A stretch of 20,097 nt of DNA from positions 1 through 20,097 of the IMG/VR virus record IMGVR_UViG_3300027782_000463; one strand, given 5' to 3'. Below the pieces are notes generated by a model. That model was not told the DNA's origin, did not search any database, and saw only the letters and a program-made list of their open reading frames with translations. This DNA is from a virus. This document shows positions 5,753 through 13,724 of the stretch, one piece after another. The translations under genes were made by a program, and so were the position numbers. Position 1 is the stretch's first letter; each line of letters starts with the position of its first letter.

Positions 5753-5883
5753 ATTATTGGTTTTTATAATGTGTTATATAGAAAAATAAAAAAAATCAAA
5801 TGTCAAAAATGGTTAAGTCTTTGTTTTATATCAGAATAATGAAGGGCCCAAGGCATACGATTGTTTTTTGACACGAAAAAATA

Positions 5884-5909
5884 GGGTATGGGGTAGGGTA
5901 GGGGAGGGG
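5884..5909 (+). other. G-quadruplex-type tract
   Basis: Five runs of three or four G on the plus strand (5884-5886, 5890-5893, 5896-5898, 5901-5904, 5906-5909) are separated by loops of 3, 2, 2 and 1 nt, the classic pattern for a stable parallel quadruplex. It is striking in an AT-rich phage. The G strand is the template strand for the leftward terS transcript, whose leader would be C-rich here. Confidence 0.75.
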
Positions 5910-5978
5910 CTTAGTCCTATTTAACATAATATAAATTATAAGACCTATCCTCTCTCCTATTCTTAGCCTATCCAATGG

Positions 5979-5986
5979 CAAAAGTA
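5979..5986 (-). promoter_or_regulatory. Minus-strand -7 element TACTTTTG, proximal copy
   Basis: The minus strand reads TACTTTTG, an exact TAnnTTTG match, within the 12-bp repeat TGGCAAAAGTAA (5976-5987). Transcription would run leftward into terS with a leader of about 220 nt. No TTG is seen at the right distance, so it is a candidate only. Confidence 0.45.
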
Positions 5987-6026
5987 ATGTAGTTTTATTA
6001 TATTGATAGTTTACTCACTCTGATGG

Positions 6027-6034
6027 CAAAAGTA
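6027..6034 (-). promoter_or_regulatory. Minus-strand -7 element TACTTTTG, distal copy
   Basis: Second copy of the 12-bp repeat (6024-6035), exactly 48 bp from the first. A TTG on the minus strand at 6062-6060 lies 25 nt upstream, slightly longer than the usual 17-23. It could be a tandem late promoter, or the repeat could be a binding site of an activator. Confidence 0.45.
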
Positions 6035-6185
6035 ACAAACAGGCTTTAATACTTATATTCAATTTACTTTACTATACACTAATATAATAGGTAATATAAA
6101 CTCTATTATATAATATATACAATATAGTTGATAATATAACAATATACAATGTATAAACTATCTAATGTATACTAATTAGCTTACT

Positions 6186-6204
6186 TAGTGTACTAATTAC
6201 ACTA
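6186..6204. promoter_or_regulatory. Operator-like palindrome TAGTGTA-CTAAT-TACACTA
   Basis: A perfect inverted repeat with 7-bp arms and a 5-bp centre. The 9-mer TACTAATTA at its core (6191-6199) recurs at 6170-6178, 21 bp away, i.e. two helical turns, within a degenerate second palindrome. This is the usual look of tandem sites for a dimeric helix-turn-helix regulator. It lies about 105 nt before the first rightward gene. Confidence 0.6.
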
Positions 6205-6309
6205 TCTAAATCAATAAAATAATTAAATTATTTTTTACATTCTTTGATGTTTGTATTAATATCCTTTGTATATTACAGCGTCATTATAAAACAAAATGAC
6301 CCTTTATTT

Positions 6310-6405
6310 ATGCTTTATTTATACTTTATTCAATTGGCTTTATTCTGTTTCTTTATGGCCTTTGTAGGCAAATTATTTATTAACCTTTTAATAGATAAGC
6401 AATAA
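6310..6405 (+). CDS. Micro membrane protein, 31 aa
   Basis: The ATG at 6310 follows CCTTTATTTATG, the same start context as the genes at 6768 and 8144. The product starts MLYLYFIQLALFCFFMAFVG and continues with a short basic tail ending DKQ, giving one hydrophobic segment across most of its length. The stop overlaps the next start as TAATG. This appears to be the first gene of the early operon. The function is unknown; a small membrane effector acting early on the host envelope is possible. It is short, so coding status rests on start context and tight coupling. Confidence 0.5.
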   Translation: MLYLYFIQLALFCFFMAFVGKLFINLLIDKQ

Positions 6406-6506
6406 TGAACACTACAATAACACTACTAGAAACAATCTGTATCTGTGCTGCTAGTATACTAGTATATGCACTATTAAAAACTATTTATCAATCATTAAAA
6501 AAGTAA
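6405..6506 (+). CDS. Micro membrane protein, 33 aa
   Basis: The product begins MNTTITLLETICICAASILV and ends with the basic stretch KTIYQSLKK, giving one transmembrane helix of about 18 residues with a positive C-terminus. Start is coupled to the 31-aa gene by TAATG, and its stop is 2 nt before the 80-aa gene. The tight three-gene arrangement argues for real translation. No homologue is recognised. Confidence 0.5.
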   Translation: MNTTITLLETICICAASILVYALLKTIYQSLKK

Positions 6507-6508
6507 CA

Positions 6509-10285: not shown

Positions 10286-10528
10286 ATGCACCCTACACCA
10301 TCACATCTAAAACAAAAAGGCCTTAAGGATTATTTTATGATAGTCGTTGATGGCGAGAGACTGAAAAAAGATTACATCTATCGTGGTATGTTTATCCATT
10401 GGGATAGCAAAAAACCCCTAGATAAGTTCTACTATTGGAGAGCTGATTATTTCACATCGATTGAAGGAGCTATGCGTAGCATAGACAGACATTACAAATT
10501 ATATAAAAAACTAAAAGATGCTAATTAG
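10286..10528 (+). CDS. Hypothetical protein, 80 aa
   Basis: A basic, aromatic-rich small protein (DYIYRGMFIHWDSKKPLDKF, then YYWRADYFTSIEGAMRSIDRHY and a Lys-rich helix). This layout suggests a compact alpha-beta domain that may bind nucleic acid, but no motif is recognised. It overlaps the next gene by 11 nt. Start is the ATG in TAAGTATG directly after the previous stop. Confidence 0.7.
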   Translation: MHPTPSHLKQKGLKDYFMIVVDGERLKKDYIYRGMFIHWDSKKPLDKFYYWRADYFTSIEGAMRSIDRHYKLYKKLKDAN

Positions 10529-10712
10529 AGACTATCGTGCCTTGCTTAAGTATGGCGATATAAAAAAGATTTGTGAGATTACAGGGTACACACCTTATAA
10601 GATTCGCACTAGGTTGGCTAAGGCTGACGAAGAGATGATTGAAATTGTAGAAGCTTTCTATCGCAAAAAGATAGAAGAATTAAAAAACCAAATATATGAC
10701 TTCACCGAATAA
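10518..10712 (+). CDS. Small helix-turn-helix-like protein, 64 aa
   Basis: The segment YGDIKKICEITGYTPYKIRTRL (about residues 12-33) has the spacing of a helix-turn-helix with a turn at TGYTP, followed by a long charged helix that could dimerise. It may be a small transcription regulator or replication accessory factor. It overlaps both neighbours (11 nt upstream, 17 nt downstream) and directly precedes the DnaA-domain gene. No family is assigned. Confidence 0.68.
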   Translation: MLIRDYRALLKYGDIKKICEITGYTPYKIRTRLAKADEEMIEIVEAFYRKKIEELKNQIYDFTE

Positions 10713-11091
10713 AATACACTACTACGCTATGCCAGGAATATTAAACTTTGAAGAACCTGATAGAGAATTACTAATTCAGTTTGTATGTAAGGAGATGAAT
10801 GTAAGGTACAAAGATGCCTTGTCTAAAGATAGATCACGCATTCTAGTGCTTACTAGGAATATGTGCTATGCCATCCTAAAAATTTATGTAGGAGCCACAG
10901 TAGCCTCAATAGGCAGGTTATTTTTTCGTGACCATACAACTGTCCTACACGGATTGCGTATGCACCAACAAGACCTTAAGACTAATGACATCTACCAGGA
11001 GCAATTCGATGAGATTAGATTCTTACTTAAACTTAATTTACCAACCAAAAAACACATAAAGTATGCTAAGTCAATTCGCACTATGGGATGA
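10696..11091 (+). CDS. DnaA domain IV-like DNA-binding protein
   Basis: A 131-aa protein. Residues about 22-95 follow the C-terminal domain of DnaA: ELLIQFVCKEMNVRYKDAL, then RILVLTRNMCYAILKIYVG, SIGRLFF and the signature RDHTTVLHG at 78-86, which reads the DnaA box. The AAA+ ATPase domain is absent. It can therefore bind boxes but not form the nucleotide-driven filament. Three DnaA-box-like sites start 14 nt after its stop, and the helicase genes lie downstream. It may mark the phage origin, recruit or exclude host DnaA, or repress its own operon. Short first 20 residues are unassigned. Confidence 0.85.
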   Translation: MTSPNKIHYYAMPGILNFEEPDRELLIQFVCKEMNVRYKDALSKDRSRILVLTRNMCYAILKIYVGATVASIGRLFFRDHTTVLHGLRMHQQDLKTNDIYQEQFDEIRFLLKLNLPTKKHIKYAKSIRTMG

Positions 11092-11266
11092 TTCTGAAAA
11101 GCGATTATTCATCGCTAAGATTATCCACCAAATTAATTATTCACAAGCTAATCTTGAGTTAATGGAATCTATCTTGTCTATATGGCAAAAGTATCCTACA
11201 AGAGAAGCTTATTATTATCAAGAAACACAACCAAAAAATCTAAACTATGGAACTACAAACAACTAG
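11063..11266 (+). CDS. Hypothetical protein, 67 aa, containing the DnaA-box array
   Basis: Overlaps the previous gene by 29 nt and the next by 20 nt. The protein is mostly helical (LFIAKIIHQINYSQANLELMESILSIW read in two parts around residue 25) with a polar tail. No motif. The first third of the gene carries the 16-bp-period boxes, so the DNA may be under double selection. Start at ATG 11063 is the only reasonable one. Confidence 0.62.
   Translation: MLSQFALWDDSEKRLFIAKIIHQINYSQANLELMESILSIWQKYPTREAYYYQETQPKNLNYGTTNN
11105..11145 (+). promoter_or_regulatory. Three DnaA-box-like sites at exact 16-bp spacing (candidate origin)
   Basis: TTATTCATC (11105-11113) matches TTATNCACA at 7 of 9, TTATCCACC (11121-11129) at 8 of 9 and TTATTCACA (11137-11145) at 9 of 9. 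All three are on the same strand, with start-to-start spacing of exactly 16 bp. Because 16 is not a multiple of three, the period is not caused by the protein repeat. They directly follow the gene for a DnaA domain IV protein. This fits an iteron-type binding site at an origin or autoregulation. Confidence 0.6.
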
Positions 11267-11921
11267 TCCTTCGTATGAGTTAATCAACAAGGATTCAATG
11301 CTTAAATTAAGCACAGAGTTATCTAAGCTAATCAAAGAGAAAGGCTTATCGTCTAACATTCAAGGTAAACAATTCGTTAATGTGGAGGGATGGCAATTTG
11401 CTGGAGCTTCACTAGGATTGATGCCAATTATTACATCTACTCAAGATCTATCCAATGAAACTGCTATTAAATATATGGCGACTTGTGAGGTACGCAATAT
11501 TACTACAGGTCAGCTCGTTGCTACAGGCATTGCCTTATGCTCAAATGCCGAAAAAACTAAGAGATACTTTGATGAATATGCTATTTTATCTATGGCACAG
11601 ACAAGGGCGATTGGTAAGGCTTATAGGAACTTACTTGCTTGGTTAATGAAAGCAGCAGGATTTGAAGCTACACCTGCTGAAGAGATGGACTTTGCAAAAG
11701 AGGAGCACAAAAAACCTGTCGTACAAGAGGTAGAAGTAGAAGAGATAGCAGAAGTAGAAGTTGATAGAGTAGAATTAATTAAGCAGATTACTGACTGCAC
11801 TAAAAATAAGGAGCTAGTAGATTTATATTATGGATACAAGCAATACATAGATGGCGACCAAGCTTTACTAATGTTGCTTAAGTCTAAAAAAGAATCATTC
11901 ACATCTAAAACAAAAAAATAA
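11247..11921 (+). CDS. Phage protein, possible recombination/annealing factor, 224 aa
   Basis: The core has a beta-rich segment (VNVEGWQFAGASLGLMPIIT; MATCEVRNITTGQLVATGIAL) followed by the conserved helix YAILSMAQTRAIGKAYRNLL (about 110-129) and AAGFEATPAEEM (about 134-145), a pattern I know from phage proteins encoded in replication and recombination modules. The acidic repeat VEVEEIAEVEVD links to a small C-terminal domain. A Rad52/Erf-like single-strand annealing role is possible but not shown. It precedes the 155-aa gene with a one-base overlap. Confidence 0.75.
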   Translation: MELQTTSPSYELINKDSMLKLSTELSKLIKEKGLSSNIQGKQFVNVEGWQFAGASLGLMPIITSTQDLSNETAIKYMATCEVRNITTGQLVATGIALCSNAEKTKRYFDEYAILSMAQTRAIGKAYRNLLAWLMKAAGFEATPAEEMDFAKEEHKKPVVQEVEVEEIAEVEVDRVELIKQITDCTKNKELVDLYYGYKQYIDGDQALLMLLKSKKESFTSKTKK

Positions 11922-13117: not shown

Positions 13118-13724
13118 TTGGTACGCAGTTCTACCTGCACAGGTTTTATTAAGCAAGGAGCTTACTGATAAACAAAAGTTATTAATAGCTTTAATATCTA
13201 ATCTAAGCAATGAAAGAGGTTATTGTTTTGCATCTAACAAGTATTTAGGAGATTGTCTTGATTGTTCAGAGTCTACGATTAAAGACCACCTTAAAAAGTT
13301 AGAGGATATGAAGATACTAGGAAGGATTATTAAGTTAAAAGATAATGGCGATTTTGACTATAGATCATTGGTAATTAACATTGATATACCTAGGCCTGAA
13401 AAAACTACTACCTCAGCCGAAAAATCGGCTTACCCCTCAGCCAGAAAACTGGCACATAATAATATAGTTATTAATAACAAAGATATAATACCTAATAAGA
13501 TATATAACGATAAGGATTCTTTTATCAATAGACTAGAAGTTTTTAAGGATAAACTTGGGAATCAATATCAATCTTTTTTAGACTATTGGACTGAAGCAGA
13601 TGCTAAAGGTAAGATGAGATACCAAGACCAAAAATTCTTTGACATAGCTAGAAGAGTAGGAACCTGGCTTAAGAATAGTAAAAACTTTGAACCTAACACA
13701 CCAACTAAAATAAAGCTTAAATAA
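13107..13724 (+). CDS. Winged-helix replication protein, 205 aa
   Basis: The N-terminal domain (about 1-95) is a winged helix: LTDKQKLLIALISNLSNERG, then the recognition part YLGDCLDCSESTIKDHLKKL and a wing. It is followed by a polar linker and a C-terminal helical domain (SFLDYWTEADAKGKMRYQDQ, then FFDIARRVGTWLKNS), a layout known from phage replisome organisers that load DnaB. The gene overlaps dnaB by one base (TAATG), which supports the partnership. Target site unknown; local repeats upstream are candidates. Confidence 0.8.
   Translation: MNHNWYAVLPAQVLLSKELTDKQKLLIALISNLSNERGYCFASNKYLGDCLDCSESTIKDHLKKLEDMKILGRIIKLKDNGDFDYRSLVINIDIPRPEKTTTSAEKSAYPSARKLAHNNIVINNKDIIPNKIYNDKDSFINRLEVFKDKLGNQYQSFLDYWTEADAKGKMRYQDQKFFDIARRVGTWLKNSKNFEPNTPTKIKLK

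Follow-up and report, generated by a model that had tools for sequence, protein, structure and literature searches.

The replication origin of phage lambda follows a plan in which the iterons and an AT stretch lie within the initiator gene O, between the DNA-binding N-terminal and the partner-binding C-terminal domains, at a flexible linker (PMC5043065, PMC7466680, PMC6022878). In plasmid pPR9, an HTH_36 (pfam13730) N-terminal domain has been exchanged jointly with the ori, as a single module, and now stands before a C-terminal part of the pSK41 type; the plasmid replicates (PMC5703833). A DnaA without the AAA+ domain is also known to have an accessory origin role in iteron plasmids (PMC5043065). 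Among phages, stand-alone Bac_DnaA_C proteins are encoded beside a single-strand-annealing protein in Pelagibacter phages (HTVC100P, Greip EXVC021P and others), where some depositors annotate DNA replication initiation. Since this domain has already been annotated there, the stand-alone DnaA domain IV is a known kind of protein; our literature search yielded no study of what such proteins do in phages.

The locus compared here with these systems lies in a window of 20,097 bases, the virus record IMGVR_UViG_3300027782_000463 (Table 1). A preliminary description had noted a DnaA domain IV gene near winged-helix and DnaB genes, and all three indeed belong to the same gene block. It had also proposed that the phage carries its own origin-binding domain and its own iterons, the latter being a triple of DnaA-box-like sites behind the DnaA domain IV gene. 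Iterons of its own do seem to be present in the phage, but the triple is probably not among them, and the candidates lie 2.3 kb downstream. Taken together, we think it probable that the triple is a by-product of coding, that the origin is at 13.4 kb, and that the DnaA domain IV protein is a separate DNA binder.

Table 1. Features of the window discussed in the text
Feature	Position	Strand	Remark
64-aa protein	10518..10712	+	ORF; overlaps the DnaA domain IV gene from upstream; conserved left neighbour of the slot
Predicted stand-alone DnaA domain IV protein, 131 aa	10696..11091	+	Bac_DnaA_C, without ATPase domain
Small conserved protein, 67 aa	11063..11266	+	motif LFIAKIIHQINYSQ; houses the three box-like sites
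Three DnaA-box-like sites (starts 11105, 11121, 11137)	11105..11145	+	judged a coding by-product
Conserved 224-aa protein	11247..11921	+	right-hand anchor of the slot; ERF-like by eye only
HTH_36 winged-helix replication initiator (putative), 205 aa	13107..13724	+
Candidate iteron 1 (CCTAGGCCTGAAAAAACTACTA)	13389..13410	+
Candidate iteron 2	13411..13434	+	with dyad AGCCGAAAAATCGGCT
Candidate iteron 3	13435..13458	+	with dyad GCCAGAAAACTGGC
AT-rich stretch, 85% AT	13454..13513	+	candidate unwinding element
Phage DnaB-type replicative helicase, 446 aa	13724..15064	+	gene right after the initiator gene

The protein with the RDHTTVLHG signature had been described as a DnaA domain IV without an ATPase domain, and signature, Pfam, PDB and structural model agree on this. 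Its sole Pfam match is Bac_DnaA_C (E=4.6e-14), at 52.6 bits where the cut-off is 31.5, and its PDB sequence match is E. coli DnaA domain IV (1j1v, 3.7e-07). The predicted structure has a pLDDT of ~90 across residues 21-110 and aligns to two complexes of DnaA with DNA, 1j1v and 3pvp, at an rmsd of 1.1 Å and a target TM score of ~0.9 (0.91 for 1j1v). Five of the six residues known to contact the DnaA box (R399, P423, D433, H434, T435 and H439; PMC7561715) are kept, the exception being the P423 position, which is A. The phage protein thus has the fold and most of the box-contact residues of bacterial DnaA domain IV, but lacks the AAA+ domain, has the P423 position replaced and carries one residue fewer before RDHTT. 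With no AAA+ ATPase domain in the ORF, which holds domain IV alone, it does not qualify as a full DnaA initiator. On sequence and model, the gene is one for a stand-alone DnaA domain IV, with predicted binding to TTATNCACA. The Bac_DnaA_C proteins of the Pelagibacter phages are ~34-41% identical to it, with a longer N terminus in those examined, and no initiator or DnaB is annotated in the stretches examined. In HTVC100P and Greip EXVC021P (loci L093 and L094), a nuclease and a single-strand-annealing protein are encoded close to the gene, a similar company at ~35% identity.

Downstream of this gene, the three box-like sites were confirmed at their described positions with an exact spacing of 16 bp twice: TTATTCATC at 11105, TTATCCACC at 11121 and TTATTCACA at 11137 have 2, 1 and 0 mismatches to TTATNCACA. 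If the DnaA domain IV protein bound this triple as all or part of the phage origin, the retained contact residues would fit, as would the rarity of the arrangement, since no triple of such quality was seen in 180 simulations of order-1 to order-3 Markov sequences. When the codons were redrawn synonymously with the 67-aa protein fixed, a comparable triple appeared in 0.9% of cases, i.e., it is mildly unusual under such reshuffling, and this is before allowing for the free choice of motif and spacing. Boxes within one mismatch of TTATNCACA were not enriched in the window (22 observed, 29.7 expected); over ten related records, perfect TTATNCACA sites numbered 13 and those of a reversed control pattern 14, again without enrichment. 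In addition, the whole triple sits within the ORF of the small protein, a gene conserved among relatives, which argues against an origin at this site. The spacing had been taken to exclude the coding frame as its source, since 16 is not divisible by 3; the boxes, however, occupy all three codon phases, and a coding origin is possible.

Synonymous changes in relatives settle whether such sites are a by-product of coding or a site array. In boxes 1 and 2, most of the substitutions seen among 33 close relatives were synonymous. A set of 28 DNA haplotypes of relatives was retrieved using the protein motif as the search key, so the presence of the motif is given while the loss of boxes is informative. 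Within this set, box 1 had 4-7 mismatches in 19 haplotypes, and the triple was kept, with no more than 3 mismatches in total, in just 3 of the 28, with the protein motif retained. A 16-bp period conserved in relatives, whose absence had been named at the outset as grounds for refuting the array, was thus not found. Boxes 1 and 2 are lost at synonymous positions with the protein kept, and they show no conservation beyond that of coding. Box 3 (TTATTCACA) is the better preserved site, being perfect in 9 of the 28 haplotypes and in the majority of close relatives, with a single mismatch in most of the rest; this favors a site array, and there may be a single working DnaA box at 11137, but box 3 taken alone is ambiguous.

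Since the boxes decay in relatives while the protein stays, and since TTATNCACA is not enriched, we judge the 16-bp triple to be a by-product of the codons for the motif LFIAKIIHQINYSQ and not an iteron array. An origin at the triple appears highly improbable, with the period and boxes 1 and 2 not conserved where the protein is, and with the DnaA domain IV allele swapped beside an unaltered flanking site (see below). More generally, a conserved protein sequence can produce a regularly spaced motif array in its gene, also with a period that is not a multiple of three. The small protein is 64-68 aa long with an invariant INYSQ core, and in distant relatives it still reads L[FL][IV]AK[IV][IL]H[QNE]INYSQ, where the identity of the DnaA domain IV protein is only 26-45%. 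In all groups its gene sits between the DnaA domain IV gene and the 224-aa gene, an observation independent of the motif search. Scans of Pfam, PHROGs and NCBIfam gave no match for it, and neither did named phages.

A better candidate for the origin lies inside the gene preceding that for DnaB. The preliminary description had called its product a winged-helix loader; a winged-helix replication protein it is, but its HTH_36 domain matches many PHROG replication initiation families, and we read it as an initiator. The middle of the gene contains three repeats starting CCTAGGCCTGAAA, CCTCAGCCGAAAA and CCTCAGCCAGAAA, spaced 22 and 24 bp, with dyads in copies 2 and 3. Ranked by AT content among all 60-base windows of the gene block, the 60 bases past the repeats are in the top 0.35%. 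Further relatives, collected by initiator similarity, follow this plan at the same codons, though with other repeats (CCCCAGCCGAAAA, TATTCGGAA, GAAACTTTACC, TGACGRCATTTCG, CTCCGAAAACGG and ATGGTTGAAAA). For ten representatives, a score for three copies at a spacing of 21-24 was tested against 400 synonymous shuffles. It was matched by at most 3 of the 400 shuffles in nine representatives and by 28 of 400 in the tenth (L041); for the window alone the value was 3 of 400, a modest statistic. Every array in the ten representatives then runs into an AT-rich stretch of 65-85% AT.

Among these relatives, the iteron sequence changes in step with the N-terminal domain of the initiator. For example, in the TATTCGGAA and AAACTTTACC types, the two that differ most, the N-terminal domain is 25-33% identical to that of the window, while the C-terminal part is 72-88% identical. 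The locus therefore presents what a lambda-O-type origin calls for, namely at least three iterons within the initiator gene, an adjoining AT stretch, and co-change of the iterons with the N-terminal domain. The most likely position of the phage origin, as judged from these sequence features, is ~13389-13515, inside the HTH_36 initiator gene and 2.3 kb downstream of the triple. The initiator N-terminal domain would bind three iterons lying in the DNA for its own disordered linker, the AT-rich stretch beside them would melt, and the conserved C-terminal part might help to bring in the phage's own DnaB from the next gene. The structural model predicts disorder for linker residues 97-130, whose codons span the iterons and the beginning of the AT stretch. 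Mosaicism is seen in the initiator gene (window, L030, L006, L074, L063, L086 and L087), in which the N-terminal domain and iterons swap as a unit and the C-terminal half is conserved.

By analogy, the candidate origin is of an already known kind, one that follows the lambda-O/RepA_N plan. It has the same intragenic arrangement of iterons and AT stretch as ori-lambda and the lambdoid relatives, with some differences. Three iterons at 22/24 bp are present here, whereas lambda has four; a phage-encoded DnaB is directly adjacent and no P-type loader was identified; and the kinship of the initiator with lambda O is limited, at the sequence level, to weak matches to O-like PHROGs. RepA_N initiators have a central ori inside rep and an N-terminal domain with a DnaD-like winged-helix fold, which the model also suggests for the phage initiator. 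The best PDB folds for the latter include RepA_N-type plasmid initiators and DnaD, at partial TM scores of 0.3-0.5. In contrast to the RepA_N plasmids, the phage gene has another C-terminal part, no RepA_N Pfam match (the domain was found in none of 23 initiator family members, HTH_36 in all 23), and no plasmid copy control was seen. The exchange of N-terminal domain and ori as a module in pPR9 resembles the mosaic of the phage initiator. A testable origin on this plan can thus be placed for a group of uncultivated phages.

Another place to look for an origin is the region at 5753-6508. These ~750 noncoding bases separate divergent gene blocks, have ~28% GC and contain imperfect repeats, both direct and inverted, such as a pair of 40-nt copies at 6054 and 6114, 60 bp apart. 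A phage origin elsewhere than in the initiator gene, such as here, would be consistent with the low GC content, the absence of coding and the imperfect repeats. It is nevertheless improbable in view of the initiator-gene iterons found in every subfamily and their switching of specificity; for a region that separates divergent gene blocks, a regulatory role is simpler, and it probably is a regulatory region. A promoter and terminator scan of 5.7-6.8 kb gave no signal over chance. GC skew was discarded as an origin indicator because it tracks the coding strand and thus says nothing on the origin.

We return to the DnaA domain IV gene, which occupies a slot between the 64-aa protein gene and the small gene. 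Slot loci were anchored on the downstream 224-aa gene, and in all 68 readable loci, window included, the slot upstream of the small gene holds a DnaA domain IV protein, the metagenome contigs having been picked for similarity to the window and not being independent samples. These proteins fall into nine allele groups (<60% identity). The 64-aa protein is 37-95% identical between phage groups, and the 224-aa protein is strongly conserved (68-94% among relatives), with no match in Pfam or in 50,697 named phage records. In loci with alleles L219 and L232, the DNA flanks are ~90% identical on both sides and the gene itself 40-65%; between L162 and L159, the DnaA domain IV proteins are 29% identical and their neighbours 91-92%. 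The loci with this allele-swap pattern are those of the window (10696-11091), L219, L232, L159, L162, L214 and L220. The recognition helix differs among alleles (DHTT, DHST or DRTT). By analogy with lambda O, the DnaA domain IV genes of nine alleles were themselves searched for DnaA boxes or repeats, and no consistent excess emerged.

Three iteron types accompany the window-type allele, and two each were seen with the L191 and L219 alleles. From these sequence comparisons, the slot appears to be always filled, with alleles exchanged gene-precisely and independently of the iteron type. Given this free combination of alleles and iteron types, the DnaA domain IV protein would not be the cognate partner of the phage iterons. 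Its action as a pure iteron protein, one option raised at the outset, was ruled out on this ground, the iterons co-varying with the initiator's own domain and not with the DnaA allele. The target sites of the DnaA domain IV protein likely lie outside its immediate DNA context. To our knowledge, this swap slot is apparently new to the literature.

What, then, could the protein do? Tentatively, we regard it as a host-directed or regulatory DNA binder. As an ATPase-less binder it could act on DnaA-box-like sites outside the phage origin, e.g., host DnaA boxes, and its binding there could redirect or block host DnaA during takeover. We infer a host-directed role from just two observations, the lack of site enrichment in the phage and the exchange of alleles, and consider it possible, at somewhat below an even chance. 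A bolder proposal, and a rather doubtful one, is that of a specificity cassette: the slot must hold an ATPase-less DnaA domain, and its alleles swap independently of the origin as the target varies between hosts, be it host DnaA, its sites or a DnaA-sensing defence. If the swap slot holds up, phage proteins would be using a bare DnaA DNA-binding domain against a host-variable target.

Alternatively, the protein could be an accessory factor at the phage origin that uses non-canonical sites, as with the ATPase-less DnaA of iteron plasmids. Its gene does share a block with those of the initiator and DnaB, but the free pairing of alleles with differing iteron types and the lack of a box cluster by the iterons or in its own gene make this unlikely. 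Hardly more probable is a phage transcription regulator with its operator elsewhere in the phage genome and alleles swapped like those of immunity-type regulators. The allele exchange and the variable recognition helix would suit such a protein, and a repeat-rich intergenic region of 28% GC exists at 5753-6508; this region, however, is without DnaA-box-like sites, and nothing ties it to the allele.

As to the wider affinities of the phage, Rfam and tRNA scans gave no matches, and the search for DNA relatives among named phages returned short matches only. Prophage or host relatives were sought among genome contigs, with a single distant match. The terminase of this phage group is ~35% identical to the terminases of Flavobacterium and Bacteroides phages.
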